NCBI GenBank assembly: GCA_027080505.1
Contig: JALWRX010000105.1
Span: forward strand, 1-39,413
Length of the DNA stretch: 39,413 nt
Reading direction: 5' to 3'
Source of the DNA: Ghiorsea sp.
GTDB lineage: Bacteria > Pseudomonadota > Zetaproteobacteria > Mariprofundales > Mariprofundaceae
The notes under the pieces were generated by a model. That model saw only the letters and a program-made list of their open reading frames with translations, ran no database searches and was not told where the DNA came from. This document shows positions 13,180-32,356 of this stretch, piece after piece; the stretch's first letter is position 1, and each line of letters begins with the position of its first letter. Made by a program: the position numbers and the translations under genes.

Positions 13180-14314
13180 ATGAGCGTTGAAGATTTAATT
13201 TCGGGTTTTAGAACCCGTGCCGAAGATTATAGCAGTCGATTGGATTCGCTGCGGAGGTCACTTTGACCTTGATACCAAGGTTGAAGAATTAAAAGAATTA
13301 GACGCTCGAACCGAAGACCCTAGCCTTTGGGACAACCCTGATGAAGCGCAAAAAATCATGCAGCAAAAAACATCCCTAGAGCGTACCATCAATGGTTTTA
13401 ACAAAACATTAAATACGCTTGAAGAAGCGTCTATGCTCTTTGAAATGGGCATGGAAGAAAATGACCAAGACAGCAAACTCGAAGCCGTTGCCGAGATTGA
13501 TAAAGTGCAAAAAGATATTGAAAGCTTTGAATTGGCACAAATGCTGGGTGGTGAAACCGATGCTGAGTCTGCCTTTTTAGATATCAATGCAGGCTCTGGC
13601 GGCACTGAAGCCCAAGACTGGGCAGAAATGCTGCTTCGTATGTATTTGCGTTGGGCCGAGCGCAAAGGTTTTAAAACTGAACTTATTGAGTGTACACCTG
13701 GTGAAGAAGCTGGCATTAAATCGGCAACGGTCTCGATTAAAGGCGAATATGCCTATGGTTTCCTCAAAGCGGAGATTGGTGTACATAGACTTGTTCGCAA
13801 GTCCCCTTTTGATTCAGGAAATCGCCGCCATACTTCTTTTGCATCAGTATTTGCCTTCCCTGATATTGATAGAGACATTGATATTGATATTAACCCTGCT
13901 GATGTGCGTATTGATACTTACCGTGCATCGGGTTCAGGTGGTCAGCATATCAATAAAACTGATTCTGCCGTACGCATGACGCATGAACCATCAGGTGTGG
14001 TCGTACAATGCCAAAGTGATAGGTCGCAACACAAAAACCGTGACCATTGTTGGAAAATGCTTAAAGCACGCTTGTATGAATTAGAAATTGAAAAACAACA
14101 GGCTGAGAAACAAGGACTTGAAGATACCAAGTCCGATATTGGTTGGGGGCATCAAATTCGTTCGTATGTGCTTGATGCTTCACGCATTAAAGATTTGCGT
14201 ACAGGTATGGAAACCAGCAACACACAAAACTTTTTGGATGGTGATATAGATGATTTCATCGCTGCCAAACTGATGGGCATTAACAAAGGCAGCGGAGCAA
14301 GTGACGATGAGTAA
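13180..14314 (+). CDS. prfB: Peptide chain release factor 2, expressed through programmed +1 frameshift
   Basis: The true gene starts at ATG 13180 (GGAG at 13170-13173, MSVEDLISGF). It reads 28 codons to CTT-TGA at 13261-13266, then shifts +1 so that GAC 13265-13267 continues into the long frame (…LDLDTKVEELKELDARTEDP). The joined product, codons 13180-13263 plus 13265-14314, is 377 aa, normal for RF2. The long part carries the RF2 stop-recognition motif SPF (RLVRKSPFDSG) and the catalytic GGQ (ASGSGGQHINKT) for peptidyl-tRNA hydrolysis at UGA and UAA. The frameshift is the classic autoregulation: when RF2 is scarce the in-frame UGA is read slowly and shifting rises. era overlaps the 3' end. 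Confidence 0.96.
13253..13267 (+). promoter_or_regulatory. prfB programmed frameshift site
   Basis: The internal Shine-Dalgarno-like GGAGG (13253-13257) is separated by 3 nt (TCA) from CTTTGAC (13261-13267). This is the same spacing and slip sequence as in the Escherichia coli prfB site. The ribosome slips +1 on CTT at the UGA codon. Confidence 0.95.
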
Positions 14315-15961: not shown

Positions 15962-16837
15962 CTATAAACTTTGAATCTTGGCAATTGTCTTTTTATTCTG
16001 TTGCATCACAAATTGTTGCAAACGTTTGACAATTGCAGGATCAACTTGTTGCATAACAAGCATAGCTTCTTTATCTAAAGCAAGTAAGTCTAACTGATTT
16101 GTAGCTACAGCCGTATAACCATATTTACTGCCTTTATCCAAGCGTACTTCACCTAATATATCGTTATCTCTACGTATTTCTAAAAGCAAAGATTTACCAG
16201 ACTGTTGCACCAACACTTCAGCTTCACCCGATAAAATCATATAATATTTATCTGCATTATCACCTTGGGAAAACAGTGTTTCACCGCGCTTTAACTCTGA
16301 AACGGTTAACTGTGTGGATAAGCTCTCTCGAATTGATGCTGAAAACACACTAAACACCACATGTGTATAAAGGAAACTATTTAAGACACGCTGCCTCATA
16401 ATAGAAAATACCCTAGACTTAAAGTCTGCATCTGCATCTAAGACTTGTTGTATAGCCTGCAAACCAACCCGTATAACCACTGAAGGCTCTGCCGTATAAA
16501 CAGATGCAAAACGCGTTTTTCCTCGTAATACGCCATATTCCCCATAAAAGTCACCTGCTTTTAAAGTCGCAACAACCAAAGGCTTACCCGCATGTTTTTT
16601 AGCTACAGCCAAAGAACCTTGCGCAATAAAATATAAATCATGTGGTGTATCACCTGCCACCATCATTTCGACACCCTTGGCAACATTTATGACTTGTGAA
16701 TCTTGATTTAATATACGGAGATTAAGTGGTGACAATCCTTTTAGCACTGGAAAAACACTACCGCTTAACTGCTGTAGGGTCTTCTCCTTATGAAGACCTG
16801 AAATCTCTAAAAAACCTTCATCATTGATATTTGCCAT
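15962..16837 (-). CDS. Protein with two cyclic-nucleotide-binding (cNMP) domains, no output domain
   Basis: 291 aa, no signal peptide. The first cNMP fold (about 35-145) has an intact phosphate-binding cassette (GDFYGEYGVLRGKTRFASV with Gly-Glu and Arg). The second (about 165-290; GETLFSQGDNADKYYMILSG, then NDILGEVRLDKGSKYGYTA) keeps Gly-Glu but lacks the arginine, so it may not bind nucleotide. There is no helix-turn-helix, kinase or channel domain, so it probably acts by protein contact. It is the last gene of the minus-strand DUF11 cluster, 39 bp after the giant barrel protein. That suggests, without proving, that the cluster responds to a cyclic nucleotide. Confidence 0.85.
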   Translation of the reverse strand: MANINDEGFLEISGLHKEKTLQQLSGSVFPVLKGLSPLNLRILNQDSQVINVAKGVEMMVAGDTPHDLYFIAQGSLAVAKKHAGKPLVVATLKAGDFYGEYGVLRGKTRFASVYTAEPSVVIRVGLQAIQQVLDADADFKSRVFSIMRQRVLNSFLYTHVVFSVFSASIRESLSTQLTVSELKRGETLFSQGDNADKYYMILSGEAEVLVQQSGKSLLLEIRRDNDILGEVRLDKGSKYGYTAVATNQLDLLALDKEAMLVMQQVDPAIVKRLQQFVMQQNKKTIAKIQSL

Positions 16838-16876
16838 GATTTAATTCTACCTGTTAATTAATAAACATAATTATGC

Positions 16877-19800
16877 TTATTTTAACATGTCTGCAAGGCT
16901 GTTTTGATCATATTTAAAGCGGAAGCGTATATAAGTACCAGCTTGGGTATACTCTGCCGCTGTGAAGTCTTGATCATAAAAGCCAACAAAATTATAACCC
17001 ATGCTTAACCAAAAGTTTTCAAACATATTATAACCTAAGGCAAAACCAACTGTAGGTTGATAGTTATTCAAATGTCGCACACGTAACGCAGCTGCTTGCA
17101 TGGTCACATCCCAACTTTCATTCACATCATAAATCACATACATACCTAACAAGTCTGTTAAGCCAGACCAAGCATCACCCTGAATTGTTTCATCGGATAA
17201 CTTAATACCATGATTTAACCTAAGCTGCCAAGAAGCTGTTGTTTGCCAGTTTGCGGTCATATTATTGATATAACGTAAACTTTTACTTTCTAATCCTGTT
17301 CCTGATTGTTCATTCCTTCGCACATCAAAGCGATTTAATAGAATCAACTTATCAAACTCAGGTCGCCATGCTACACGTAGTGAAGCATCTGAGCTCAAGT
17401 TGTACCCACCCGTTGCTAAAACATCATGTTGCCAAAGCATAGTCCATTGCATTGAAAGATCGTCCAATGGTGAGCCTTGGATACCTATGCTAGCTCCCCT
17501 ATGCTTACTTAAATCACTGGTGCGATATTCTAATCGATTCGACCATACCCAATCACCTGGATGATAGTCTGTACCTAGAGATAGCGCAGTAAAATCTTCA
17601 CCACCAGTCACAATAGGCGCATTTAAGTTCACTTGGACAGGTTGTGTTGTTTTTAATACCTTGGTTTGATCTAGGCTTGCACTTAAACTTAACCTTTCAT
17701 TAAACTCCCAAGTTTGTAATAAACCCGCATTAGCAAAACTGCGCATACCTGCCTCACTAAGCTGTTGCTCATAACTGCTGGACATGGTTGCGCCATTCCA
17801 AGGCTGTGTATTCACTCCAAGACGAGTTGATGATGTATCTTGCACTGCACCACGTGTCCATTCTTGCGTTGCCGTTAAACTTGTCGTTGCCGTAATACTA
17901 TATTCTGCACCAAGTGTTGAACGACTTGGGAAATCAACACTATTATTGCTACCAAGTGCCTGTTCATGGTCTGCGCGCAACGACATACGCGTACTTATTT
18001 TTTTACTTGCACCTACGCTGGCTAAGGTGCCACCTGTCACAGTGCCTACACCATCTACATCTTGTGTAGCACGCAATCCAGTGCGCACATCATAATCATC
18101 AATTTTATCTTGGTACTGAATACTCGCCATATCTCGTACAGCACCTGTATTTAATACTTCCTGGCGGAATACCTCACCATTAATACTAGCTTGTTTATCC
18201 AATCGGTATTGACCATTGGCACCCAGCTTGCGGGTTGCATTTTCACTGCCCAATTGCTGACCAAGACCAAAGTTATCATCTTGTTGCCGTGCATAGACTG
18301 TACCACTTACAGTTTCATCAGCTAAACGTGCTTCAAGCTTAAACGCACTACTGGTTACAGCGTTATTTGTACTACTTGCGATTTCAGATACAACTTCAAC
18401 TGTATCATTCACCTGAACTTTTACATCTACACCACTTAAGGTATTGCTACCTGCCAAAGTACCTTCAGATACAAAAGTTCCCCCTACTTCAATACGTTCA
18501 TTTGGTTTGACATAAACACGCCCCCCCGCGGTGGTCAATTCACTACCACCACTATCAGCCTCATATTCAACACGAATCATAATCGGATTAAGCTCTGAGT
18601 CCCGGCTTAATACAGGCTGCTTAAACCAAATTGTACCCAGAACATAATCAATATCATAATCAAGGTGGCGTGTAAGTTTTACTGATTTAAGTATGACTTC
18701 ACTCCTAAAGCGATCAACCGTTTCAATCAATACTGTTTCCGTATTACTGATAATATTTTGATTGCTCAAGCGATACAGACCACTGGTACCATTACCTTGT
18801 ATTTCATCACGGTACATAGCTTGACCCGTTTGTGTGGCAAACGCTGTAAAGCCAATAGTATCTTCATGCATTTCAGCTTTTACACCAGTAAAAACGCGTG
18901 AATAACGTGTTAGTTCCGTTGTCGAAAGTCCTGTTTCATAATCACCAAACAAGGCATAAAATGTGTCTCTTTCAATTTTAACATATAACTTCTTACTACT
19001 TGTACCATCAAACTGCTGTTGCGTGGTATCATTGTAAACTGTGTACATCGCATTAGGGTCAATATCACCAAAGCGACTATTTTGTTCAGTTAACGTTTTT
19101 TGTGCTGTGTCATATGCCAATGTTAGCAAAAACTTACCTGGGATTTGTCCTTTAGCATAAAAGGCAAGTTGACCATCTTTATAAAACTTATCTTGTTCTG
19201 ATGGCTTTGTAATCGGTTGAATAGCTCCTTTTAGGTTATTATAGCCTAACGTTCCCTCACCAAAACCAACCAAAATCCAATCTCGCATTTCAGGTTTTAC
19301 ATATACTTCAATAGTTTCTTGCACATTATTATAGCCCAATATAATGCGGTGTGTGCCACTGGTCGTCACTGGAGCTAGGGTCACCCAACCATCAGCATCC
19401 ACAAATACTTTTTGTGATGCTTCCTGGGTTAAAAGTGGTGTATTTTGATTTTGACGAACCAGTAAATCACCACCCAATTGTGCCAACTCTATGCTACCAT
19501 GAATCACTGAATTTGTGTTATCAGCAAGAGCTAACCTAAAACGAATCGGGGTTTTGCCATCAGCAATATTTTCACCCGTTTCAACCAATTTAATGGAAGA
19601 TAGTTCCCCAGTTCTCACCACACGAATCGTTTCTTCAAAACGTGCATTACCAAAACTATCCATACCTTTAACATTTAAAGTGTGTTCACCCTGTTTGCCA
19701 AAATCAACACCAATATAAGTATATGTTGTTTTGCCCGTTTCAGGATTTTCCGATTTGAAACCAATGCGCTCATCCGGCACTGGGCGATCATCAACTCGCA

Positions 19801-22800
19801 AATCAACACTTAAGCTCGAAGGCAAAGCGATACGTACCGAAGCAATGGGGTGAGGTAAGCTCATGCCATCAGCAGGTGATAAAATACCTTCTATTTTTTT
19901 ATCTTTAGGTGCTTCAACCTGTATTACATCTGCTTTATCCCATGAGCCCAATGCAACACCTTGACCTTGGGCTTGTGTATCTTGTAATTGTGTAGAAAAA
20001 TCATGCGTAATCTTATCTGCACGAACTTTAAGCACCACACGCCTATTTTGTTCACGACCTTTACGTGTTTTATTCGAGGCAATTGGCTCTTGCTCACCTT
20101 TACCCACTGCAAAAACAATGCCTTCATCCAGCTGCAAATGTTCTTTTAAATAAGCTGCAACATAATTGGCCCGTGCTTGTGACAGTACTAGGTTATTTTT
20201 GAACTCTTTCTGGTTGCGTTTAGCAATTGGAATATTATCCGTATGCCCTTCAACAATCAGTTCACGAACGACTAAGCCATTGAGCGAATGAATCAATTCT
20301 TTTAATTTGCTTAACTCTTTTTCAGGCACTTCTGCTTGGCGTGATGCAAACTTCAAGTGCAAGGTAAAAGACCGCTGATCATGTAGCTCTTTCAGCGTAT
20401 CTTGAATTTTAATGGTTGCTAGACCTGTACGCCCTTGTTTTGAACCTGCTGAAACAAACCTTGCATAAGCACTAGCTTGCTTTAGACCACCCTCACCTGC
20501 GCCGCGCATAGCTAGGTGGATATATTGTTTATCTTTTTGCGTATCAAGCTGCCACACTAGACCTACAGGTGATTGCTCTGGCTCCATTGGCTCACCATTC
20601 ACTGTAGCACTACCAGATACATACTTCCAACCTTGTGGAAGGTTATAGAATGCTTGAAGCTTTGACAGTTCAACCTTCCCACTTTGACTTACTTCAACAT
20701 CAGCTACTACAAGCCCTTTCTGCTCACCTTCACCTTCACTTAATGCATGCTTCACCAATACTGGTGTTTCTTCAGGTGCGCGATTGATAAGACGGAAGTT
20801 AGCGCGAGCTAAACCACCACCTGTCACTTCAACAAATTGCGAATAATCATTTTTAGAAAAACGCGTTTGTTTCAAACCAACCGCTTGATAACGCTGCGCA
20901 ATGGTTGCTCTATCCATTTGTACAACATGTGTACCTAGTTTCACTGCATCAAAGTGGTAGCGACCATTTTTATCAGTAACAATGCTACGACCATCTTGCA
21001 TAAAAATACGAATACCTTGTACACCTGGCTCATCTTTATCTTGAATTTCATTCATGTTTTCATCAATAAAGACAACGCCAGCAATAAACCCACGACTACG
21101 AATCAAATCCTCACGAATAGTTACATTTGCCTTTGAAGTATTTGAACTAACCGCACTACCTAACATAGTGCCCGTTGCATATGCACTATTGGTTGCAATT
21201 CCAAGCCGTGTATTTGCGCCTACCACAGCTGTATAGGATAGGTTAACTACCGTAGGTGCTGCAGCTATACTACCAATACTAAAACTTAAATCTCGTCCAT
21301 TTGCAGAAATAATAGGGTCAGCCAGAGCCACACCATCCAAAGTAGCAGACCCCGCTTGATAGCGGAAACCAAGCGGTAAAGTATCATGAATTACACTCGT
21401 ATTTGACGAAGCTGTAGCATGTATATTTTCCACACTGATTTGGTATGCAACACGGTCTCCAATAGCCGCAGTACTTGTTGAAGTTGTTTTACGCACAAAC
21501 AAGTTCACACCTTTGCCATCCAGTGGCACGTCAATATGCAATGCTGGACCTGCTTGAACCTTAAAGGTTTCACCACGCGAACCTGTCACAATTGAAAATG
21601 GACCGGTTGGAATGGCTTGAATATCAGCTGTAGCTACTTGCGATGGATAGCTATATCCAGGCGGTGGTGTGATTTCTAAACGGTAATCACCCAGTGGCAT
21701 GAATGGGAAACGATATTTACCTGTACCAAAGGTATAAACCGCACCTGATGCGTCTGTCACAGTAGAGCCTGATACTACAGTAGATGGATAAATGCTTACA
21801 CCGTCATCACCATACACTGTAGCTGGCAAACCTGTTGCTACATCAATGATTGTGATTGTTGCACCATCTAACGGTACACCACTGCTGGAATCAAAAACCA
21901 AACCAAAAGGATCTACCAATGCAGCGGATGCCGCAACATCTGTATTGTCAAACTTATCTGTATATGTTGCTGTGATGGTTGAATCAACATTGACTGAAAG
22001 TACCCCATCATTTGGTGTTGCTGTTGGTGAACGTGTAGAGGCAATATTGCCAATAAATATGCCTGTATTGTTACCTGTTTCTGTTAAAACAATCGTTTCA
22101 GTATCACTGCTTGCACTGTCGGCCAGCGTAACAGTCACTGTTTGTTTGGTATATGGGTCTAAATTTTGGTCACCATCTTTGACTTGAACGTATATATTTT
22201 GCCCTGCATGGTATATTTCAGCAGGCGTATATTGACTCGTGGTTGTATTCAAGTACATAAAAGCAATTTGAGCTTTAGTGCGTGTTGTAATAATTTGCAC
22301 TGGTGCAGCATGGCTCGCCAACTTCGCATTATTGGCATGGTAATCCGCAGGTATAGTCGTCGCACCCAATGGCGCTGTTGTTGGCACTACCAATGAAGCT
22401 GGAAATGTAAAGTTTTGACCCACGAGCAAATTAGGTACAGTTACCAACCATGCTAAAGGAAGGGTTGGGTGCGGCACAGCAACATATAAACCATAAGGAT
22501 CCACAGGAATTGTTAAAGTAGTACCTGCAGGTGCAGTAATCACAACATTACCATTCAAAAGATTATTGATACCTGTATTGGTAATTTGAACACTAACAGG
22601 TGATGTTGTACCTAAGCGTGCTGTTGCTGGGGTAGTAACCATAATACTAGCTGAATTTGCTGTGGCGATAGTCGCATAGACATCAACCGAAGTATTAATT
22701 ACGGCTGGTGCAGTTGTATAGCTAAGCTGTGCCGTATTTGTAATTGTTTGTGATAGTACTGCATAAGCAGGTGAGCTAAAGCCCACCATCACTATCAAAC

Positions 22801-22882
22801 AGGCAGCAATATAGGCAAGCTGATGGGTAGTATTACTCATCAACCTTAAAGCCACCTGTTTAATAGTATGAATCATATTCAA
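16877..22882 (-). CDS. Giant DUF11/SdrD-B/OmpA/beta-barrel outer-membrane protein
   Basis: 2001 aa. The signal peptide ends at SPAYA (residue 41). In rough order: a DUF11-like N-module starting TITNTAQLSY (45-150), further Ig-like modules and a CarboxypepD/SpaA-like region (200-450), a DUF11 module (450-590), an SdrD-B-like module with FIDENMNEIQDKDEPG (595-660), and an OmpA-type peptidoglycan-binding domain (about 830-957; LIVEGHTDNIPIAKRNQ, SQARANYVAAYLK). Ig-like spacers follow (960-1195), then ~800 residues of alternating amphipathic strands ending YIRFRFKYDQNSLADMLK, an outer-membrane barrel. It probably sits in the outer membrane with a peptidoglycan clamp in the periplasm. The start is TTG 22882 or ATG 22876, with no good ribosome site; the preceding stop is 15 bp upstream, so coupling is likely. 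Anchor or exporter for the neighbouring secreted proteins is inference. Confidence 0.82.
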   Translation of the reverse strand: MNMIHTIKQVALRLMSNTTHQLAYIAACLIVMVGFSSPAYAVLSQTITNTAQLSYTTAPAVINTSVDVYATIATANSASIMVTTPATARLGTTSPVSVQITNTGINNLLNGNVVITAPAGTTLTIPVDPYGLYVAVPHPTLPLAWLVTVPNLLVGQNFTFPASLVVPTTAPLGATTIPADYHANNAKLASHAAPVQIITTRTKAQIAFMYLNTTTSQYTPAEIYHAGQNIYVQVKDGDQNLDPYTKQTVTVTLADSASSDTETIVLTETGNNTGIFIGNIASTRSPTATPNDGVLSVNVDSTITATYTDKFDNTDVAASAALVDPFGLVFDSSSGVPLDGATITIIDVATGLPATVYGDDGVSIYPSTVVSGSTVTDASGAVYTFGTGKYRFPFMPLGDYRLEITPPPGYSYPSQVATADIQAIPTGPFSIVTGSRGETFKVQAGPALHIDVPLDGKGVNLFVRKTTSTSTAAIGDRVAYQISVENIHATASSNTSVIHDTLPLGFRYQAGSATLDGVALADPIISANGRDLSFSIGSIAAAPTVVNLSYTAVVGANTRLGIATNSAYATGTMLGSAVSSNTSKANVTIREDLIRSRGFIAGVVFIDENMNEIQDKDEPGVQGIRIFMQDGRSIVTDKNGRYHFDAVKLGTHVVQMDRATIAQRYQAVGLKQTRFSKNDYSQFVEVTGGGLARANFRLINRAPEETPVLVKHALSEGEGEQKGLVVADVEVSQSGKVELSKLQAFYNLPQGWKYVSGSATVNGEPMEPEQSPVGLVWQLDTQKDKQYIHLAMRGAGEGGLKQASAYARFVSAGSKQGRTGLATIKIQDTLKELHDQRSFTLHLKFASRQAEVPEKELSKLKELIHSLNGLVVRELIVEGHTDNIPIAKRNQKEFKNNLVLSQARANYVAAYLKEHLQLDEGIVFAVGKGEQEPIASNKTRKGREQNRRVVLKVRADKITHDFSTQLQDTQAQGQGVALGSWDKADVIQVEAPKDKKIEGILSPADGMSLPHPIASVRIALPSSLSVDLRVDDRPVPDERIGFKSENPETGKTTYTYIGVDFGKQGEHTLNVKGMDSFGNARFEETIRVVRTGELSSIKLVETGENIADGKTPIRFRLALADNTNSVIHGSIELAQLGGDLLVRQNQNTPLLTQEASQKVFVDADGWVTLAPVTTSGTHRIILGYNNVQETIEVYVKPEMRDWILVGFGEGTLGYNNLKGAIQPITKPSEQDKFYKDGQLAFYAKGQIPGKFLLTLAYDTAQKTLTEQNSRFGDIDPNAMYTVYNDTTQQQFDGTSSKKLYVKIERDTFYALFGDYETGLSTTELTRYSRVFTGVKAEMHEDTIGFTAFATQTGQAMYRDEIQGNGTSGLYRLSNQNIISNTETVLIETVDRFRSEVILKSVKLTRHLDYDIDYVLGTIWFKQPVLSRDSELNPIMIRVEYEADSGGSELTTAGGRVYVKPNERIEVGGTFVSEGTLAGSNTLSGVDVKVQVNDTVEVVSEIASSTNNAVTSSAFKLEARLADETVSGTVYARQQDDNFGLGQQLGSENATRKLGANGQYRLDKQASINGEVFRQEVLNTGAVRDMASIQYQDKIDDYDVRTGLRATQDVDGVGTVTGGTLASVGASKKISTRMSLRADHEQALGSNNSVDFPSRSTLGAEYSITATTSLTATQEWTRGAVQDTSSTRLGVNTQPWNGATMSSSYEQQLSEAGMRSFANAGLLQTWEFNERLSLSASLDQTKVLKTTQPVQVNLNAPIVTGGEDFTALSLGTDYHPGDWVWSNRLEYRTSDLSKHRGASIGIQGSPLDDLSMQWTMLWQHDVLATGGYNLSSDASLRVAWRPEFDKLILLNRFDVRRNEQSGTGLESKSLRYINNMTANWQTTASWQLRLNHGIKLSDETIQGDAWSGLTDLLGMYVIYDVNESWDVTMQAAALRVRHLNNYQPTVGFALGYNMFENFWLSMGYNFVGFYDQDFTAAEYTQAGTYIRFRFKYDQNSLADMLK

Positions 22883-22897
22883 TTAATCAATCTTGAA

Positions 22898-23992
22898 TTA
22901 ATTTACAGTTACTTGGAAATCAACAGATACTTCTGTACCTGCTGCACCACCAACAATCACACCAGCGGCTTGCCCCAAGCTGTTCACTTGAAGACCACCA
23001 ACCAATGGTGTTGTACCTGCCACATCGGCTACAGCTGCGGGTGCGGTTGCACCAGCAGGACCATCAACGTCTAACTTGGTTGAATTAAGTACATACGTCA
23101 TAAATGGTGGAATTGTATCCGTAAACTTAACACCATTAAGCGTAGAATTTGCAGGAACTTGTGCAATCATACGATACGTTAAAGTATCACCACTTTTAAC
23201 ATTTTGTAGCGTTGTTAAAAATGCACCGCCATTCACACTCACCGATTTAATAAATACAATTTTCACGACATTCACAGTACCAGTTACAGCTGCTGAAGGA
23301 TTGCCTACTGAATCCTTACTAACCACCGAAATGACTTCAGTACCTGCTGTTGCAGGTGGTGTTACAACACCTGCCGTAATGCTAACCGTGAAGCTTTGTT
23401 GTTCACCAATTTGATCACCAACAGCCACTGCTGTTGTCAAAGGTGTCGTAAGCGTAAGCGTTTGATTGCCTGTTGCTGTATCGGTAATCGTTGAAACAAC
23501 GTAAACATTGCCACCAATGACAATACTATCACCCGCGACAATACCATTCAGGCTATTATTCGCTGTACCATCTGCTGGTACAGTAATCGTTGTCGCACCA
23601 ATTGCGGCAGGTGCTGCTGCAGCCGTTGCACCCAAAGTAATCCCTACTGGCGTGGTTGGCGCAGACGAACCTGTCACATTCGTTGCCACACTGGTTGGTG
23701 CATTAAATGTGTATGCATCAGGACCATTAGCATTAGCTCGAATCTGATATATTAATGTCGCCGTCTGACCTTCAGCAACTGTTACAGCTGTTGGTGCAAT
23801 CACTGTGGCTGCTGCTGGCACAAGCAATACTGTCACATCAACACTAGCCGTAATTGGTGTAACCAAACCTGTATATGATAATGATGCAGTATTGGTAATC
23901 GTACTATTTGCAGGTGCAACGGCTTGCGCACTTTGCACGCCTGCAAAAGCAAGCAATGCCATCATCACACTTCCTAATATTATTTTCTTCAT
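22898..23992 (-). CDS. Secreted DUF11-domain protein, 364 aa
   Basis: The signal peptide ends at SAQA (24). The mature N-terminus STITNTASLSYTG is shared with the giant barrel protein. A middle module contains GDSIVIGGNVYVVSTITD (near 160-177) and EQQSFTVSITAG, matched by the neighbouring 412-aa protein. The C-terminal DUF11 module (from about 250; LTYRMIAQVPANS, FTDTIPPFMTYV) ends exactly at DFQVTVN-stop. The protein is rich in Ala, Thr, Val and Gly, with few charged residues and no cysteine apparent, like a structural surface protein. AAAGGAGTAGGA precedes ATG 23992. A role as fibre or coat subunit is inferred from the paralogy and cluster. Confidence 0.8.
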   Translation of the reverse strand: MKKIILGSVMMALLAFAGVQSAQAVAPANSTITNTASLSYTGLVTPITASVDVTVLLVPAAATVIAPTAVTVAEGQTATLIYQIRANANGPDAYTFNAPTSVATNVTGSSAPTTPVGITLGATAAAAPAAIGATTITVPADGTANNSLNGIVAGDSIVIGGNVYVVSTITDTATGNQTLTLTTPLTTAVAVGDQIGEQQSFTVSITAGVVTPPATAGTEVISVVSKDSVGNPSAAVTGTVNVVKIVFIKSVSVNGGAFLTTLQNVKSGDTLTYRMIAQVPANSTLNGVKFTDTIPPFMTYVLNSTKLDVDGPAGATAPAAVADVAGTTPLVGGLQVNSLGQAAGVIVGGAAGTEVSVDFQVTVN

Positions 23993-24037
23993 TTCCTACT
24001 CCTTTTACTCTTAAACTGGTTTAAAACTCAAACATCC

Positions 24038-24107
24038 TCCGAAATCATTTGGTCCTTCACCAGTAAACTTCGGACGATGGACGGCAGGATAACCTGCCGC
24101 CAAAGTC
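24038..24107 (-). other. Structured intergenic RNA element between the two DUF11 subunit genes
   Basis: Reading on the minus strand, CGGCAGG-ttat-CCTGCCG (24099-24082) is a perfect 7-bp GC-rich hairpin. It is flanked by AGACTTTGG and CCGAAGTTT, which can pair with wobbles. A second stem joins TCCGAA (24074-24069) and TTCGGA (24043-24038). The two larger helices share bases and would compete. There is no T tract after the GC hairpin, so simple termination is unlikely. It could be a partial attenuator, a processing site or an mRNA stabiliser that sets the ratio of the two subunits. It does not match a riboswitch class I know. Confidence 0.45.
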
Positions 24108-24123
24108 TTACCTGTGATAATTA

Positions 24124-25362
24124 TTATTGAATTGTCACTTGATAGAACAACACAACCGTTGCACCTGCTGCCACAGTAGGTACAGACAATGTTGCTTGGT
24201 TTGCCGCGGTTACACCAAAGTCATAACCATCTGCATCTGCCGCATCTGTTAATGCAACATTCGCAACATCAGCAAACAATGCACCAGCAACCGAAGAAGA
24301 TTTAGCACTACCAGCAACGTATTTTGTATATGCTGGCATAGGGTCTGTAATCACTACTGTTGAAGCTGAACCTGCACCACCATTCGTAATGGTAATACGA
24401 TAAGTTAGTGTAGATAATGGTGCACCTGAACCTGTTGTAGCAAATGTTGCACCACCGTCAGAGCTCACTTCTTTGGTGATCGTAAGATTTGCACCTTGAA
24501 CCGTTGTTGTTGTTGTAATTGGTGCTGTTATTGGCGTGCCAGGAGCTGGGCCACCAACTGTAATATCAAGTGGCACCGTACCATCACCTGGTGCAACTGT
24601 TGAAGATAAAACATCAACTGTAAATGCTTGCTGCTCTGCAACCAGCAAGCCAATTTGTGGTGAAGGTGTGCCCACAACTGAAGGCGTAAATGCTGGGGTA
24701 ATGTTCGAACCTGCCGTATTAGCTGCCAAAGTAATCGATACTGGCACTTCAGCAGTAATCGTACCTGCAATTGTTGCACCTACATTCGCTTTTGCAGCAG
24801 TACCTGCACCTGATACTTTGGATACCAAGTAATCAGTACCATTGATAACCACAATATCATTCACAGCCAAATTGGAAGCTGTACCTGCTGGAACAACAAT
24901 AATATTAGCTGCTGTTACATCACTAATCACAGATGATGCAAGTGTTAGTTGTGTAACCGTTGTAGCCCCTTGCTTAAATACCACCGTTGGTGCAGTTGCA
25001 TTAGTAGTTCCTGCAGCACTCACTGCTGAATTCAAATTATAAGTATCACTACCATTCGCATTCGATGTTGCAGTAAATGAATACGTTATTGCTGTGCCTG
25101 ATGGTGTAGCCCCCGTAGTAGCTCCCACTGCCGCTAAAGTAACTGCAGTTGGCACTAAGGTAACTGTTACGCTAGCTGATGCACTTGCAACCAACGCAAC
25201 GCCACCAGGACTTTTATAGTTTACAGTCACAACGTTAAGAATTGTTGTTCCTGCACCTGTGTTGGCTGAAGATGTTTGTGCTGCAGCCATCAACACTGCG
25301 GCAAACAATGTTGTTGCAACAACCTTCAACACTCCTTTTCTTATGTTTGATATGATTTTCAT
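24124..25362 (-). CDS. Secreted DUF11-domain protein, 412 aa
   Basis: The signal peptide runs to about residue 33 (TSSA). The layout repeats that of the 364-aa neighbour: an N-module with TILNVVTVNYKSPGG and ASVTVTLVPTAV, a middle module VNDIVVINGTDYLVSKVSG followed by AEQQAFTVDVLSS, and a C-terminal DUF11 module (SSDGGATFATTG, STLTYRITITNGGAG, ITDPMPAYTKYV) ending FYQVTIQ-stop. The middle part is expanded compared with the 364-aa protein. Composition is Ala/Thr/Val-rich and nearly free of charge and cysteine. AAGGAG precedes ATG 25362. The 127-bp gap to the upstream gene shows no strong promoter. The two proteins are probably paralogous subunits. Confidence 0.8.
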   Translation of the reverse strand: MKIISNIRKGVLKVVATTLFAAVLMAAAQTSSANTGAGTTILNVVTVNYKSPGGVALVASASASVTVTLVPTAVTLAAVGATTGATPSGTAITYSFTATSNANGSDTYNLNSAVSAAGTTNATAPTVVFKQGATTVTQLTLASSVISDVTAANIIVVPAGTASNLAVNDIVVINGTDYLVSKVSGAGTAAKANVGATIAGTITAEVPVSITLAANTAGSNITPAFTPSVVGTPSPQIGLLVAEQQAFTVDVLSSTVAPGDGTVPLDITVGGPAPGTPITAPITTTTTVQGANLTITKEVSSDGGATFATTGSGAPLSTLTYRITITNGGAGSASTVVITDPMPAYTKYVAGSAKSSSVAGALFADVANVALTDAADADGYDFGVTAANQATLSVPTVAAGATVVLFYQVTIQ

Positions 25363-25489
25363 ATCACTCTCCTTTTTTCATCCGTAGATGTTATAAATTG
25401 CCCATAGGCATTGTTGTTAAACTTATCTATTTATGACTTGTTGTTTATTTTGTATCATGCACAACCCTCTATTCACTTTACACCAGCTT

Positions 25490-25960
25490 TTAATTTACTT
25501 TAACTCTAAAGCCTACAACACCTGACTTCCCTGCAGGTATCTTTTTCACAATCCAACGAATATGTGTATATTGCTCTGGCGAAGCTTTACGCTGCTCTGT
25601 TTTACCATTTTTGTTCACTGTATACGTTAAAAGACTTGGTTTCTTAAAGGTTTTTCCATCCACTGAAAACCTCACTTCAGCCAGTGGACCAAAAGCAGAT
25701 GCCACTATATACGATGTTCCTTGCGGGATAGGGTCATTCAGCACCACATTTTGCGCGGCTTCATCACCTTTGTTTTCATATTGCAATGTATAAACAATTA
25801 CATCTCCAGGTACTACATCTGTAGCGGACACACGTTTTTCAACCTGTTTTCCATCCTTTTCAACAACCACAACTTTCTCAGCCGTAATTGAGACTTGGAT
25901 ATCTGGAGCTGCCCATGCCAATGACGGCAACAACAGCAAACATACTAGTAAATACTTCAT
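25490..25960 (-). CDS. Small secreted single-module DUF11 protein, 156 aa
   Basis: ATG 25960 is chosen because TAAGGAGAAAGGA lies directly upstream (25961-25973); a longer open frame to 25990 would add ten residues before it. The signal peptide MKYLLVCLLLLPSLAWA is followed by one module: VVPGDVIVYTLQYENKGDEA, VVLNDPIPQGTSYIV, RFSVDGKTFKKP, YTHIRWIVKKIPAGKSG, ending GFRVKVN-stop. This is the same subtype (S-x-D-x-G-x-T-Y/F ... T-H-hydrophobic-R/K) as the last module of the giant protein encoded 29 bp upstream. Unlike its neighbours it is rich in lysine. A capping, chaperone-like or assembly role is a guess. Confidence 0.82.
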   Translation of the reverse strand: MKYLLVCLLLLPSLAWAAPDIQVSITAEKVVVVEKDGKQVEKRVSATDVVPGDVIVYTLQYENKGDEAAQNVVLNDPIPQGTSYIVASAFGPLAEVRFSVDGKTFKKPSLLTYTVNKNGKTEQRKASPEQYTHIRWIVKKIPAGKSGVVGFRVKVN

Positions 25961-25989
25961 TCCTTTCTCCTTATATACACTTAAAAACA

Positions 25990-28900
25990 TTATTTCACCT
26001 GTACTTGATACTGAATACTAAAACTAGGATTTGCTGCTTGGTTGGCATTCATCGTACCATTCATGAGAATACGGAAATTGGTAATGGCAGGGTCATGACC
26101 TGTACCATCATCCACTGGAGTGTAATTATAGGTTGCACCATTATCATTCGAGAAACTCACGGTAGCTGTACCAGGTAAGCCTGAAGTGTTAGCCCCATCT
26201 GTAAAACTAAAGATTGTGGTATTCCCAGGTGCAAAAGGTGTTAACGCTAGTTTTGTATAAGGGCTCATTGTGTCTGTCACCTTCACAGTTTTTGCCTGAC
26301 CCGCACCTGTATTGGTAATCACAACTGTATAAACTATCGTATCCCCTGGTTTAGCAGTAGGGTTATTCGCTAGCTTTAACACAGTTAATGAAGGCTGTGG
26401 CTCTAATACTGTAACTGGTGCCGTTGGGCCAGGATTAGGGAATGAGAACCCTGTGGCTGTACTAGCTTGTACCGTATTATAATAAATTCTTGGTGTCGCT
26501 GTAGTTCCCACATCTGCTGAAAAGGATATTGTTGTTACCGAATTATTAACCACTGTTGGCAACGTCCATAAAGGAGTGGTTGCCGTACCTGTAGGGTCTG
26601 CTGCTGCAACACCATTAATTAATGTACTTCCTGCTTTATAGGTAAACCCAGTAGGCAACACATCTGAAACATTAATATTATTGATTGTGGTAACACCATT
26701 ATTGGCAACGGAAATAGTATATTTTGCTACACTACCTTGTGTTACCGAGGATGTTGAAGTCGTTTTACTAAGCTGCACATCGACAAGCTCAACATTTGCC
26801 GTAACACCTGCAAGCGATCCGCCATTGATGGAGGTCATGCTTACCGTATTCACCTGTGTACCTGCTAATGTAGTTGGTGAAATATTGGTGGTATAGTTAA
26901 TGACCAATTTACCATTGCTAACACCATTTTTAGCAGGAATCGTGAAGCCTCCGGCAGGTGCTGTTGTTATCGTCAACGTTTGACCAACTTGAGACAATGA
27001 CACAGAGGCTGCTGCTTGAGCAACGCCATTGATATAAACTGTACCAGCCCCAAGGCTGAAGCCTAAAGGCAACGTATCTGTCAACACCACCCCTGTTGCA
27101 GGTGCTGCCCCTGTGTTGGTCACTGTAACCGTATAACTTGCTGGAGCGTAGTTTCCTGCTGCATCACGGCTAATCACTGGTGTTGAGGTTGCTTTCACCA
27201 TACTTAAAATAGGCTGCGATACTGTGACGGGTGCTGTATTGCCTGTTGATAGCACCGTGGGCAGTGGCAGCACAGCAGGTAATGGCACAGGTACTGCTAC
27301 TGCCGAGGCAGTCGCAACATCTGTGTGGCTACCTGAGGTAGCCGTAGACCCAACCAAGACATCAAAACTCAATGTGATTTGACTCAAAGCATTTCCTGCC
27401 AATGTTGCTGGGTTCAATGCAGGCATTACCCACGTTAAAGTTTGTCCTACTTGTGTAGGCACGGGGGCAACCGCAATTGGATTCACAGGTGCTACAATCA
27501 CCGTTGAGTTGGGCACATATGTAAAACCTATAGGCATTGTTTCAGTAAACTGTGAAACACGTTGCTCCAATGCTGCTGGCGTATTTTGCAATGTGACGGT
27601 ATAGGTAATGGTATCACCAGCAGCCACTACAGGTTCACCACCTAACCAAGGCAAACCATTTACCTTGGTTACAGCCTTACTTAAAATACCAGTCGATGAG
27701 ACCACCACAGTTGCCAAATCGGGGGCATCAACTTGCACCGGTGCAAGCCCATTCTGATATGCATATTGCACACCATTGTAATATGTGCCATCAATGGCAT
27801 CACTAAAGGCTGTGAATGTAATGGTTAATGTGGATTGCCCTGGCATACTAAAGCCAGACCAAACAGGCTGCGTAGAAAAATTAGCAGGCTGTGTTGGAAT
27901 ACTAAAAGGCAAACCATTGAGCGTTACATTATCTGTACTTAAATATAAAAAGCTACCCGATGATGGTGTGTACGTTGGAGGTGCTACTACCAGTGGGTTG
28001 GTTGAAGGTAATATATCTTTCACTACAAAATTATTCGCTGCACCACCTGTATTGGTAATGGTAATGGTATAACCCACTGCTGCATTTTGCCCAGCCACAG
28101 GGTTTGCTGTTGTTTTTGTTACAGTAATAACTGGTGGCGCACTAAACCCATAGTCAAACGTCAATTGATCTACACCAGCAACTGCCGTCACTGGTACTGC
28201 AGGGTTTGCAACACCTGTAAACGGATTGGTTACAATCAAACTGTATGTGCCCGAAGCCACACCTTGGAATAAGTAGTTTCCTAAATTGTTGGTTGTCGTA
28301 CTATATATAGTTACTCCACCCTGTTGTAATACAACGGACACATTCGGTAAACCCACTTCACCAACATCTAAGAGACCATTGGCATTGGTATCATCAAAAA
28401 TCAAATCGCCAATGCGGCTACCAATGCGGTAGCCAAAATTAACCGTAGAAACAGAGCCTGGAAGCAAGCCTGTTAGGCTCACTGGAGATACGATACCTGT
28501 CGTTAAATACCTATTCGTAAGCAGCCCTGCTGTATCGGTGATTGCTAAAATATAATCACCTTGTGCCACGTTATTAAAAACATAGTCACCCAACGCATTT
28601 GTTGTGGTCGCTGCCAAAACAATACCCGTTGGGGTACGCAACTCTATACTCACACCAACCAAAGCAGCTTCGCCCACGTCTTCAATACCGTTGCCGTTCA
28701 CATCATCAAACATACGACCTTTCACCTGTGCAGGTGAACCTACGAAATCATAAGAAAAATTCTGATTTGCCAGTGTTTGACCACTTACCAAAGTTACGGG
28801 TAGCGGGTTGGTAAAACCAGTACTTAATGCTAATCCTGATAGTATGCCATTTAAATCTGTAACGCGCACATCCCAAGCACCTGCTGCAGGTGCTGGCAAA

Positions 28901-31900
28901 CTATAGAACCCATTGGCATCAGTAAACGTATTCACCGTATCAATATTACTGCCTGTTGCCTGCAATGCTACTGTAACATTCGCCACCCCATTTGCTACAG
29001 AACCGCCTGTATAAATATAACCTGAAACTGTCGTCTGCGGTACGGTAAGCGGTGATGCTGAGATTACCGTTGCTGTTGACAGTTCCGTAGATGTAATCGA
29101 AATATCATTGTTAAGCACTGTGCCTTGGGCAACCCCAGCTTTAACCACACCAGACACCGTAAATACAGCCGTTGCCCCTTGAGCAAAGCTGTTAGCATTC
29201 CAGGTAATCACCCCTGTTGCAGTAGGGCCTGCAATTGTCCAGCCCACAGGCTGCGTGGTTGTCAATGTCGCAATATCCAATACATTGATGTTAATCGCAT
29301 CGCTTATACTAATATTGCTCGAACCTGCTGCATCATTGCCAGTGTCTGTCAGTGTAATGGTATATGAAACAGTATCACCAGGCACAATCGTTGTGGCATT
29401 AACACCATTCACCGTTGCCGTTTTTGTTGAAGCAGAATAATTCGGTTGTGCGGTCACCGTTGTTGTCGTTAAATCGGCAAGCCCTGGCAATGCAGGGTCA
29501 TCACTTTTAAAAACCGTTAAACCCGTTTCCAAACTGGTTAAATTTGCCTGATTTAAAATCTGCACACCGTTGCCCAACAAGGGGGAAAGCTGAACCCTAA
29601 AGCTTGGTGTTGCCGATGCATTAACCGCTACACTTGCATACGTAAATTTAACATGCGTAACCGCTGCATCCACAGCCCCAACCAAGCCTACAGGTGTATA
29701 TAAGTAAGTTAGCCCACCATCATTAGAATAACTAACCACGCCACCGACACCTGCGACTGCAGTACTCACAACAAAACTGGTATTGGCTGGTATTGCATCC
29801 GTAATCACCACATTGGTCGCTGCTACTAACCCTGTATTGGTTGCGTTTAGCGTGTATTGCAGCGTTTCCCCTGGCCCTGTGGGTGCACCATTAATATCGG
29901 TTGCTGTTTTCCAAAACGTCGTAAAATCAGGGCTAGACACAGATACTGGAGCAAGATTTGGGGTAACCTTACTAATATCTTTACCCGCCTTCCCTTTCAC
30001 TGCATCCCAAGTGCCTACATAGCTTTCAGCTTGGTTATAGTACACGCCCGGTAGCGTAGTCGGTGCAACCGTTGCATAAAAATCAACTTGCAAGGTACCC
30101 GTTGCAAAATCAAATGGTGTGGCTGCAGGTAATGGCAGACCAGTAACTGGTGATGGGAAACCTGCTGGGTAATTTAAAATTTGCCAAAACACATCACCAG
30201 GGCGCGTTACAGTATCAACAGTATAATCGCCAACAGCTAATGGATAGACAATACCCGTGTTGTTATCTTTAAGGGTTACCGCAAGTGTATTTAGATAACT
30301 CATTGCTTTAACTACAGGCACTACTCCAGGGGCAGAAGATACTGGCAAAGAGTCACCCACAATAACACCACCACCTGTTGCAGGCGGCACTGCAGGAACA
30401 CCCAAGCCAGCGGGATAAATAGAGCCTTTAGCGGGTTTATTATTACCTTTAGCAGGTTGTGTAATTGCCCCACCATGATTGACCAATTGTATACTGTATA
30501 ATACTTGACCACCGGGAGCAGCAACACTCGGTGTCACTGTTTTGGTTTGCGAAATATTTGGCACAGCACCTGTTCCAGATATATTCGAGACAAAAGATGA
30601 CTGAGCATTAATCAGTAAAGGTGCAGCAGGTGGTGTTGTAGTGCTTGCTGTTGCAGAAACCACATTGCTTGTAATTGCTCCTCCACCTGCGGCAGTGATT
30701 TGCACCACCACTTCCATAGATCCTCCACCACCAGGGCTTAACTGAGGAATAACTGGCCAGGTAACATTGGGCGCAAGATAAGTAGCAGCACCCACAAATG
30801 GGTTACCTGTATTGGATGAAACGTAAATAGCTTCAAGCGTATCAATCTTATCCGTAACCGTCACATTAAAAAGTGGTGCCGAGGCTGCGTTCAAATAGTT
30901 CAAGCGATACTTTACCCATTGCCCTGGAGCAACAAAAGCCCCGTCAGATGAAATCCATGGGCCAGTAGGGCCAACATTGGATACAGCAATCACTTTTTTG
31001 GTTACCATCAATTGTGCGTTATTGTTAGCTTGGCTAGGGCCGATATAGGCAAACACCATATCTTTCCCGCCTTGAGCCCCCCCTGATGCATCGCCACCAA
31101 AAACTTCCGAATGGTTGGTATAAGCAGTGTTGTTAAGCGACCCAGCAGCAAATGCCGCCAAATTCGTAACACGCATTTTGATTTTAACATACTCAATAGA
31201 TCCAACTGTGCGCTCGCCAATAGCCCAACGCACTGCATTCGTTGTTGGTGGCAATGGGTTTGCCGTTGACAATGCCCAGCCAGCAGATGTCGGCACACCT
31301 GCAATAATTTCAGGACCATTCACAGCATAGGGCACAACAGCCCCCGAGCCACCAATCAATGAACCTGGCGCATAAATACGTTGCCACGGTCCTACAGTTT
31401 GAAAATCCGCCAAACTTGGTGTTGCAAAAATACCGTCACCCAAAGGGTTATAATCATTAGTATAATAAGTTTGCGGCCCAGCCACTGGCGATGACAGACC
31501 AACAAAAGTACCTGGTACAATTCCTGTCACAATGGGTGGGTTACCACGACCTGTGCCACCCGTTAGCAATTTAATAGCACCGCCGCCACAAGCATTCTTA
31601 CTGTCACCAAATGCAATAGCCTGGTCATAATCCCATTGGTTATATGTAATGAAAGCAAGCTGACCACCTGCTAGTCTTGATTTTGAGCATGCTGTAATAT
31701 CAACAGGTGCTGTTGCCGGAGCTGCAAGTGGTGGCAACAAAGGGACAGTCAAAGGTCCAGCAGGCAACCTCTGAGTTCTAGGGTCTGTAGAGAAAAAGAT
31801 ACCTGTATCTTGTGTACCCCTAGCGATACTACCATTGGCAAAAGGAGCAAGGTAAGCTTGACAGCCTCGCTGACCACAGCCATCACCTAAAATACCAGGT

Positions 31901-32322
31901 AAATTTACGGGTCTATCAATAAATGCAAAACCTCCCACCTTTGTCGGGTCAGGTACTTTATCCACAAAGCTTGCCCCAACAACTTCCATACCAGGCGGAA
32001 TATAATCAGTCACATAACCTGCTGAACCCAATGTTGCACCATTCGGAGATGGTACAGACTCAATGATATAGCTTAAAACATCACCTGTACGAATACCTGG
32101 ACCGCCCGCTGTAACCCCTGACGCGCGGTCTAACAACATCTGAACAGTTTCTGGCGCAAAGTATTTTGATGTTTGAGATTGCCCTACATTATGCGCATAA
32201 CCAACCCTACCAACCATCAAAATAGTTAGTAAAAACAAAATCATAAATACATTTTTATGTACAAAGGTAGCGATGCCAACTTCTCCTTCTTCCCCACAAT
32301 AGAGGAAAGTGACATTAATCAC
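25990..32322 (-). CDS. Giant secreted multi-DUF11/SdrD-B surface protein
   Basis: The open frame is 2110 codons. A hydrophobic export signal spans about 27-43 (ending VGRVGYA). An N-terminal domain unique to this protein (44-430) holds four cysteines in GDGCGQRGCQ, DITACSKS and KNACGGG. About four DUF11-type modules follow (430-1080), then three SdrD-B/Cna-B-like modules (1095-1390), two of them with calcium-loop-like DDVNGNGIEDVGE and DDTNANGLLDVGE. Five more DUF11 modules (typical core YTVTVTNTG...VLTDTLPLGF) run to the C-terminus QYQVQVK. Such modules build rod-like adhesins and surface fibres. GTG 32322 is the longest frame, but it lies at or before the predicted transcription start, so initiation is probably internal (see 32272-32288). 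It is the first gene of the cluster; no LPXTG or autotransporter domain is present. Confidence 0.83.
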   Translation of the reverse strand: MINVTFLYCGEEGEVGIATFVHKNVFMILFLLTILMVGRVGYAHNVGQSQTSKYFAPETVQMLLDRASGVTAGGPGIRTGDVLSYIIESVPSPNGATLGSAGYVTDYIPPGMEVVGASFVDKVPDPTKVGGFAFIDRPVNLPGILGDGCGQRGCQAYLAPFANGSIARGTQDTGIFFSTDPRTQRLPAGPLTVPLLPPLAAPATAPVDITACSKSRLAGGQLAFITYNQWDYDQAIAFGDSKNACGGGAIKLLTGGTGRGNPPIVTGIVPGTFVGLSSPVAGPQTYYTNDYNPLGDGIFATPSLADFQTVGPWQRIYAPGSLIGGSGAVVPYAVNGPEIIAGVPTSAGWALSTANPLPPTTNAVRWAIGERTVGSIEYVKIKMRVTNLAAFAAGSLNNTAYTNHSEVFGGDASGGAQGGKDMVFAYIGPSQANNNAQLMVTKKVIAVSNVGPTGPWISSDGAFVAPGQWVKYRLNYLNAASAPLFNVTVTDKIDTLEAIYVSSNTGNPFVGAATYLAPNVTWPVIPQLSPGGGGSMEVVVQITAAGGGAITSNVVSATASTTTPPAAPLLINAQSSFVSNISGTGAVPNISQTKTVTPSVAAPGGQVLYSIQLVNHGGAITQPAKGNNKPAKGSIYPAGLGVPAVPPATGGGVIVGDSLPVSSAPGVVPVVKAMSYLNTLAVTLKDNNTGIVYPLAVGDYTVDTVTRPGDVFWQILNYPAGFPSPVTGLPLPAATPFDFATGTLQVDFYATVAPTTLPGVYYNQAESYVGTWDAVKGKAGKDISKVTPNLAPVSVSSPDFTTFWKTATDINGAPTGPGETLQYTLNATNTGLVAATNVVITDAIPANTSFVVSTAVAGVGGVVSYSNDGGLTYLYTPVGLVGAVDAAVTHVKFTYASVAVNASATPSFRVQLSPLLGNGVQILNQANLTSLETGLTVFKSDDPALPGLADLTTTTVTAQPNYSASTKTATVNGVNATTIVPGDTVSYTITLTDTGNDAAGSSNISISDAININVLDIATLTTTQPVGWTIAGPTATGVITWNANSFAQGATAVFTVSGVVKAGVAQGTVLNNDISITSTELSTATVISASPLTVPQTTVSGYIYTGGSVANGVANVTVALQATGSNIDTVNTFTDANGFYSLPAPAAGAWDVRVTDLNGILSGLALSTGFTNPLPVTLVSGQTLANQNFSYDFVGSPAQVKGRMFDDVNGNGIEDVGEAALVGVSIELRTPTGIVLAATTTNALGDYVFNNVAQGDYILAITDTAGLLTNRYLTTGIVSPVSLTGLLPGSVSTVNFGYRIGSRIGDLIFDDTNANGLLDVGEVGLPNVSVVLQQGGVTIYSTTTNNLGNYLFQGVASGTYSLIVTNPFTGVANPAVPVTAVAGVDQLTFDYGFSAPPVITVTKTTANPVAGQNAAVGYTITITNTGGAANNFVVKDILPSTNPLVVAPPTYTPSSGSFLYLSTDNVTLNGLPFSIPTQPANFSTQPVWSGFSMPGQSTLTITFTAFSDAIDGTYYNGVQYAYQNGLAPVQVDAPDLATVVVSSTGILSKAVTKVNGLPWLGGEPVVAAGDTITYTVTLQNTPAALEQRVSQFTETMPIGFTYVPNSTVIVAPVNPIAVAPVPTQVGQTLTWVMPALNPATLAGNALSQITLSFDVLVGSTATSGSHTDVATASAVAVPVPLPAVLPLPTVLSTGNTAPVTVSQPILSMVKATSTPVISRDAAGNYAPASYTVTVTNTGAAPATGVVLTDTLPLGFSLGAGTVYINGVAQAAASVSLSQVGQTLTITTAPAGGFTIPAKNGVSNGKLVINYTTNISPTTLAGTQVNTVSMTSINGGSLAGVTANVELVDVQLSKTTSTSSVTQGSVAKYTISVANNGVTTINNINVSDVLPTGFTYKAGSTLINGVAAADPTGTATTPLWTLPTVVNNSVTTISFSADVGTTATPRIYYNTVQASTATGFSFPNPGPTAPVTVLEPQPSLTVLKLANNPTAKPGDTIVYTVVITNTGAGQAKTVKVTDTMSPYTKLALTPFAPGNTTIFSFTDGANTSGLPGTATVSFSNDNGATYNYTPVDDGTGHDPAITNFRILMNGTMNANQAANPSFSIQYQVQVK
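32272..32288 (-). promoter_or_regulatory. Ribosome binding site with in-frame ATC, candidate true start of the giant DUF11 gene
   Basis: AAGGAG (32288-32283) is the only strong Shine-Dalgarno sequence in the leader. Eight nt further, in frame, is ATC (32274-32272). Initiation there would give (M)ATFVHKNVFMILFLLTILM, a well-formed signal peptide with a basic residue before the hydrophobic core. The in-frame ATG at 32244 has no such site and yields a signal sequence without an N-terminal positive charge. Confidence 0.4.
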
Positions 32323-32327
32323 GGCGA

Positions 32328-32356
32328 ATTATAAATAAAATCAAGCACTTATACAA
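32328..32356 (-). promoter_or_regulatory. Sigma-70-type promoter of the DUF11 cluster
   Basis: On the minus strand TTGTAT (32356-32351), a 17-bp spacer and a consensus TATAAT (32333-32328) face the giant gene. The expected transcription start is near 32321, leaving a leader of about 50-75 nt. The 218-bp divergent region 32323-32541 also has to drive mgtE, for which I saw only weak candidates. Confidence 0.6.

Follow-up and report, generated by a model that had tools for sequence, protein, structure and literature searches.

How could a bacterium with an outer membrane build a surface fiber from secreted DUF11 proteins when no standard assembly gene lies beside theirs? The question is raised by six consecutive minus-strand genes of Ghiorsea sp. 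(Zetaproteobacteria), an iron-oxidizing deep-sea bacterium; the whole 39,413-nucleotide stretch of DNA that was analyzed (contig JALWRX010000105.1) is referred to here as the window. An earlier reading of its letters (the original prediction) had described the genes as a six-gene DUF11 surface system with its own outer-membrane protein. All six lie where it placed them, separated by 29, 127, 131, 15 and 39 bp, the first of these gaps holding only if S starts at the inner ATG at 25960.

Our answer, to which we assign a probability of roughly 0.55, is that the set would encode a pilus-like, self-assembling fiber of DUF11 (CLIPPER) subunits, anchored in the outer membrane and held together by isopeptide bonds between subunits. 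An N-terminal hairpin of subunit n+1 (the donor) would enter the open C-terminal domain of subunit n (the acceptor), a form of donor-hairpin complementation. We put forward more tentatively, at somewhat less than even odds, the wider claim of a new and widespread class of pilus needing neither sortase nor chaperone nor classical usher, in which a split CLIPPER domain and an autocatalytic Lys-Asn bond would make the whole fiber, from tip to anchor, one covalent chain. The split domain was missed in the original prediction and would supply it with a concrete mechanism. The genes are labeled G (giant), S (small), A and B (paralogous subunits), P (OmpA and large C-terminal region) and C (cNMP):

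25990..32322, minus strand: G, an open reading frame of 2110 amino acids (tip type 'T')
25490..25960, minus strand: S, a secreted protein of 156 amino acids with a single DUF11 domain and an acceptor end only
24124..25362, minus strand: A, a secreted subunit of 412 amino acids with a donor hairpin, a middle domain and an acceptor DUF11 domain
22898..23992, minus strand: B, a paralog of A of 364 amino acids with a donor hairpin and an acceptor domain
16877..22882, minus strand: P, 2001 amino acids, donor only
15962..16837, minus strand: C, two cNMP domains (1.8e-30)

Domains were called with Pfam, NCBIfam and PDB profiles. G, S, A, B and P exceed the TIGR01451 cut-off (24 bits), and G, S, P and, at the cut-off itself, A reach that of PF01345. 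G holds at least five DUF11 and two SdrD_B modules, and B contains a DUF11-type/RrgB-like isopeptide domain, with a match to the RrgB D2 model. The DUF11, SdrD_B, OmpA and paired cNMP domains of the original prediction were all matched by profiles; its outer-membrane barrel was not, and is treated here as putative.

The structure of DUF11 has recently been solved and the domain renamed CLIPPER: an isopeptide bond joins a Lys in the first strand to an Asn in the last, assisted by an Asp, as in crystal structure 9IFR, where Lys715 is bonded to Asn806 with an Asp nearby (PMC12617251). In the internal DUF11 domain of P, exactly Lys13, Asp48 and Asn113 are invariant across 13 loci, and the profile of this domain matches 9IFR (E 9.7e-8), with Lys13 falling on K715 and Asn113 on N806. 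The triad is thus present in a single domain within P, but not in the terminal domains of G, A and B. The C-terminal DUF11 domain of A, B and the tip proteins stops just short of the Asn hairpin, closing on a strand of the type h-x-F-x-V-x-V, and an Asn-bearing hairpin stands at the N-terminus of A, B and P. G has neither a donor hairpin at its mature N-terminus nor an Asn hairpin in its C-terminal DUF11 domain. The relevant parts of the window are as follows:

25993..26412, minus strand: acceptor domain of G, its last 140 amino acids; Lys codon 26376-26374, Asp codon 26274-26272; final strand ..FSIQYQVQVK, then stop
25147..25263, minus strand: donor hairpin of A (NTGAGTTILNVVTV...); Asn43 codon 25236-25234
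24127..24501, minus strand: acceptor domain of A; Lys297 (24474-24472), Asp340 (24345-24343); end ..VVLFYQVTIQ, then stop
23816..23920, minus strand: donor hairpin of B (VAPANSTITNTASLSY...SVDVTV); Asn34 codon 23893-23891
22901..23266, minus strand: acceptor domain of B; Lys249 (23248-23246), Asp292 (23119-23117); end ..SVDFQVTVN, then stop
22655..22762, minus strand: donor hairpin of P (AVLSQTITNTAQLSYTT...SVDVYA); Asn49 codon 22738-22736
21095..21526, minus strand: complete internal DUF11 domain of P, with Lys, Asp and Asn in one chain

These complementary ends and their residues, which can be read directly from the protein sequences, were counted in 22 loci comprising 41 A-type, 10 tip, 22 P and 20 S proteins. 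Lys was read from a MAFFT alignment, hmmalign being unable to place its column, and the donor counts were corrected by hand: one A-type protein (L039, VIGNQASA) was added, and the P of L029, L032 and L033 and the S of L088 were dropped. The acceptor Asp is kept in all A-type and tip proteins (41/41 and 10/10, together 51/51) and the Lys in nearly all (40/41 and 9/10, together 49/51). A donor Asn lies about 5-20 residues from the predicted signal peptide in 40 of the 41 A-type proteins and 15 of the 22 P, and the donor hairpin is absent from the tip proteins (0/10) and from S (0/20). Neither Lys nor Asp is reliably kept in S, and no other small protein of the set is as conserved. Three classes of end would set the polarity of the fiber: acceptor only (G, the other tip proteins and S), donor plus acceptor (A and B), and donor only (P). 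The gene order in the window runs from tip to base.

Isopeptide profiles point to the same pairing. TIGR04226, a model of a Lys-to-Asn isopeptide domain, scores 28.6 bits on the C-terminus of B alone, where the match stops at position 105 of 123. With the donor of B joined, the score rises to 42.3 bits and the match reaches position 122; with the P donor it rises to 43.7, whereas a shuffled donor gives 30.8. PF16569 likewise goes from 18.6 bits to 24.9 or 32.2 with true donors and to 20.1 with the shuffled one. When the profile is built from the P internal domain only, most true donors outscore most shuffles, most clearly in sphingomonad-like loci, where the gains are about 5 to 14 bits. Single-sequence searches of the PDB with the completed acceptor domains gave chance matches only.

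Several points weigh against a joint of this kind. In most other Ghiorsea, Ser or Thr replaces the donor Asn of P, and 7 of the 22 P lack the Asn; at such a base the joint would have to be non-covalent or formed in some other way. The test with curated models used one shuffled donor only, and the gains with the P-internal-domain profile are modest in the window, with none for the P donor on B. Complex prediction by structure modeling, which the original prediction had proposed, was run with AlphaFold on the C-terminal domain of B read through its stop into the N-terminus of P; from a shallow alignment of few, close sequences it returned an uninformative model (predicted local distance difference test score, pLDDT, 45). 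A model of the C-terminal 1047 residues of P, also from few, close sequences, reached pLDDT 30. Nor does the fiber model account for how subunits would stay unpolymerized in the periplasm without a known chaperone. Finally, the hairpin might instead be a component of the first domain of its chain, or pack against the C-terminal domain of that same chain.

Were the hairpin part of the first domain and the truncated DUF11 a mere domain variant, the locus would encode independent fibrillar proteins, with P displaying or exporting them. A similar 'NTA' stretch may open many secreted DUF11 proteins, and AlphaFold gave the pairing no support. This explanation nevertheless seems to us very unlikely: the curated isopeptide profiles gain only with the true donor, the donor/acceptor pattern is complementary among the roles, and the P of the same loci holds a complete DUF11 domain.

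Folding of the A or B hairpin onto the C-terminal DUF11 domain of the same chain would leave separate secreted adhesins or coat proteins and no polymer. Such self-complementation is physically possible, since the type 1 pilin FimA can fold as either monomer or polymer (PMC6615685). In A and B, however, hairpin and acceptor lie on either side of a seemingly complete middle domain of about 200 residues. The tip proteins and S have an acceptor but carry no hairpin, P carries a hairpin but has no acceptor, and these unpaired ends can be satisfied only in trans. A natural fusion, the 966-amino-acid double subunit of G030, joins the ends in the order expected of trans pairing: a hairpin follows right after the inner DUF11 domain, and the last DUF11 domain has none. 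We consider the self-complemented monomer quite unlikely.

A third possibility accepts the donor hairpin but not the bond, Lys, Asp and Asn being merely inherited from ancestral complete DUF11 domains. Archaic chaperone-usher and TasA-type fibers are non-covalent. Donor-strand fibers are listed in PMC11952670. The Asn-less P donors and the S proteins without conserved Lys and Asp also indicate that covalency is not needed at every joint. A bond-free fiber is, on the other hand, hard to reconcile with the near invariance of Lys, Asp and Asn in subunit pairs down to about 30% identity across 22 loci, and we judge it unlikely.

In the self-sealing fiber that we prefer, G and the other acceptor-only proteins would stand at the tip, with A and B forming the shaft. 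Because the acceptor keeps Lys and the catalytic Asp and the donor brings Asn, each joint should seal itself by an autocatalytic Lys-Asn isopeptide bond between subunits, with no helper enzyme; a split DUF11 domain would in this way explain why neither sortase nor chaperone is needed. The P donor would cap the last subunit, while the OmpA domain would hold peptidoglycan and the putative barrel would sit in the outer membrane. P perhaps also exports the fiber in the manner of an usher, which is a guess, as is the role of S: given the lack of conserved Lys and Asp, S would most likely be a non-covalent cap or initiator. The fiber is likely to serve in adhesion or surface coating.

The proposed anchor, P, begins with the donor hairpin and continues through MG2-like and SpaA-like stretches, the complete DUF11 domain and an SdrD_B module to an OmpA domain and a C-terminal region of about 1000 amino acids:

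20024..20350, minus strand: OmpA peptidoglycan-binding domain of P (profile match, E 2e-14)
16880..19315, minus strand: putative large outer-membrane barrel of P, proposed from conservation

In 9 loci the long C-terminal region is preserved over about 1000 residues, and it probably forms a large barrel. Residues ~990-2001 of P are matched by no Pfam, NCBIfam or PDB profile, and a PDB profile search with the region returned nothing at E<=10. Elsewhere the region carries the annotations TonB-dependent receptor, OmpA family or DUF11 protein. Named relatives of P come from Ghiorsea metagenome-assembled genomes (MAGs), one of them deposited as Mariprofundus sp. At three loci (L038 8357-9409, L039 10700-11743 and L110 11992-13074) a separate OmpA-family protein of about 350 amino acids follows P, and in this variant layout, seen in some genera and in Acinetobacter haemolyticus, there is another large protein as well.

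How far does the arrangement extend beyond the window? The core of the module is S, usually one to three paralogous A/B subunits, and P. The order S-A-B-P is kept at 35-65% identity across genera and into another family, which is beyond chance; the genes do stay together in related genomes, and the idea of a surface fiber or coat with its own outer-membrane protein is borne out to that extent. The original prediction had proposed looking for co-occurrence of all five secreted proteins in order, and here S-A-B-P was retained in relatives and G proved optional. G is present in the window's clade and, among the other Zetaproteobacteria compared, in a single further genus (G016), and we reject it as an essential part and regard it as an optional, replaceable member. 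Other Ghiorsea have S-A-B-P-C at the same chromosomal place where contigs permit checking, and further zetaproteobacterial genera, as well as another family, have S-A-B-P without an adjacent cNMP gene. The place of G in other Ghiorsea is occupied by a divergent LuxR-type regulator and a sensor kinase, which may control the fiber. A LuxR-type response regulator and a hybrid sensor kinase adjoin S at L027 4401-6256, L031 3207-5050 and L032 13830-15673.

The module occurs in Ghiorsea, other Zetaproteobacteria, sphingomonad-like and other Pseudomonadota, and on a cyanobacterial plasmid, usually as the gene run (tip)-A-S-A'-P or S-A-B-P. Outside the Zetaproteobacteria, where full-length S proteins were located with an S profile, 12 of 399 genomes had both S and a near-full-length P, within 8 kb of each other every time; S alone was found in 4 and near-full P alone in 3. 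An S, a subunit with donor and acceptor and a donor-bearing P were found adjacent to one another, and the fiber model is backed by the fact that S, A and P stay linked in different families. Related plasmid loci are present in Novosphingobium (S not found), Acinetobacter haemolyticus and the cyanobacterium Picosynechococcus sp. NIES-970, and their proteins are annotated, if at all, just as DUF11, OmpA or hypothetical. The module is real and conserved, and apparently undescribed.

The cNMP protein, by contrast with its place in the original six-gene system, was rejected as a member. Orthologs of its gene are present in nearly all Zetaproteobacteria examined, with or without fiber genes; in two genera that have fiber genes (G016 and G021) it lies on another contig; and in a complete Ghiorsea genome without G-S-A-B-P (G008) it still adjoins mgtE. 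The last genome carries the traces of a natural deletion. Inside the 497 bp that separate the cNMP gene from mgtE, decayed 3' sequence of P and fragments of the 5' part of G persist (L102 6561-7120), colinear and on the same strand; some 15 kb reaching from inside P to inside G has been lost. With the start of C included, the P remnant matches at E 1e-42; the G fragments are individually weak (E 1e-4 to 5e-3), yet colinear.

Could the fiber have to do with iron? The genome with the deletion is probably that of G. bivora, a name that we infer. G. bivora, which forms no sheath, makes amorphous oxide in strain TAG-1 (PMC8250860). Sheath-forming Ghiorsea are without the stalk (sfz) genes, and the MAG AMOR20_M1306 has been proposed as the maker of 1-µm sheaths at Favne (PMC10734525); this MAG (L047) groups with G. 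bivora and carries at least P. As an addition to the fiber model, the Ghiorsea fiber might form part of the iron-oxide sheath scaffold: a proposed sheath-former has at least P, and a genome probably from a non-sheath-forming species has lost G to P. For the Zetaproteobacteria this would offer a concrete candidate for the organic scaffold of iron-oxide sheaths where stalk genes are absent (PMC10734525). Against it, there is a single gain/loss comparison, the identity of G008 is itself deduced, and many organisms without known iron sheaths carry the genes too. A sheath function is speculation, and in our view very doubtful.

Does the module match an assembly pathway already described? The original prediction had noted the lack of any standard assembly gene, and none was found nearby: no sortase and no PapD-like chaperone is encoded in the six genes and ten flanking genes scanned, and P has no Pfam or NCBIfam match to the usher family. 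The C-termini are beta-strands with no LPXTG-type motif. A classical usher, sortase or type I system was considered and rejected. Chaperone-usher pili (type 1, P, archaic) resemble the proposed fiber in their immunoglobulin (Ig)-like subunits, N-terminal donor extension, C-terminal acceptor groove, acceptor-only tip and outer-membrane platform, but here the subunits consist of DUF11/CLIPPER domains, a hairpin bearing the isopeptide Asn would act as donor, and P also has OmpA and a donor. Sortase pili of Gram-positives (RrgB, SpaA) are covalent chains of isopeptide-forming Ig-like pilins, as is predicted for the fiber here, whereas their bonds are made by sortase at an LPXTG-type motif and the host here has an outer membrane. 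The CLIPPER domains of fibrillar adhesins (9IFR) are the same domain with the same Lys-Asp-Asn triad; there the bond is intrachain, and here Lys and Asp lie in one protein and Asn in the next. Compared with inverse autotransporters and fibrillar adhesins, P holds an Ig-like rod, N-terminal in position, together with OmpA and a putative barrel.

Archaeal threads (Saci_0406) share with the proposed fiber donor-strand complementation, a proposed covalent isopeptide bond between subunits and independence of sortase (PMC9715654). Their subunit is unrelated, however, where the proteins here match DUF11; they have no outer membrane; and Asn57 is bonded to the N-terminal alpha-amino group of subunit n+2, where we predict a bond from Lys to the Asn of n+1. 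The Aureispira grappling hook protein GhpA also has extracellular DUF11-type modules and is the best PDB match of the P DUF11 profile (E 2.8e-10), but is one protein of 5898 amino acids. In F-ENA and other endospore appendages an N-terminal arm inserts in the preceding subunit, and some anchors have DUF11 (PMC11952670); these are DUF4183 trimers on Gram-positive spores, with DUF11 only as an anchor spacer. No DUF11 pilus, inter-subunit CLIPPER bond or system with this gene set was found in the literature searched, which took in few subscription papers and preprints; this agrees with the original prediction.

If the model is right, the module would be a new type of pilus in diderm bacteria, and would explain how sortase-like covalent strength is reached with no such enzyme. 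Many proteins currently named 'DUF11 domain-containing' or 'OmpA family' would gain a function, and the joints would offer protein engineers naturally occurring split isopeptide pairs, comparable to SpyTag/SpyCatcher.

The start of the locus probably differs from what the open reading frame of G implies. Translation from the GTG at 32322 is unlikely, and the real start is probably ATC 32274, an unusual start codon that is nonetheless the conserved candidate, 8 nt after AGGAG. In two relatives a TAG closes the G frame upstream, and neither has an in-frame ATG, GTG or TTG before the charged part of the G signal peptide. GTG 32322 itself falls at the expected +1 of a candidate -10 element, TATAAT (32333-32328):

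32328..32356, minus strand: candidate promoter TTGTAT-17-TATAAT ahead of G, unproven

The case for the one good promoter of the original prediction is weak: the TATAAT is perfect, the TTGTAT 17 nt upstream of it is poor as a -35 element, and a consensus promoter scan found sites no more numerous than in shuffled DNA. An Rfam scan of the operon gave no match.

The fiber genes are placed between the prfB-era-recO genes and mgtE, the flanks of the locus comprising mgtE, a lytic transglycosylase, prfB, era, recO, LemA and similar genes. Downstream of the cNMP gene in G009 (L027 16603-19901, L048 16413-24854) there is a lipoprotein-like multi-domain open reading frame of 2813 amino acids. At 36572-38416 of the window, downstream of ruvC, is a gene for a serine/threonine protein kinase. 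At 13180-13270, the release factor 2 gene prfB carries CTT TGA C, the classical site of programmed frameshifting, preceded by a 28-codon leader frame starting with ATG.

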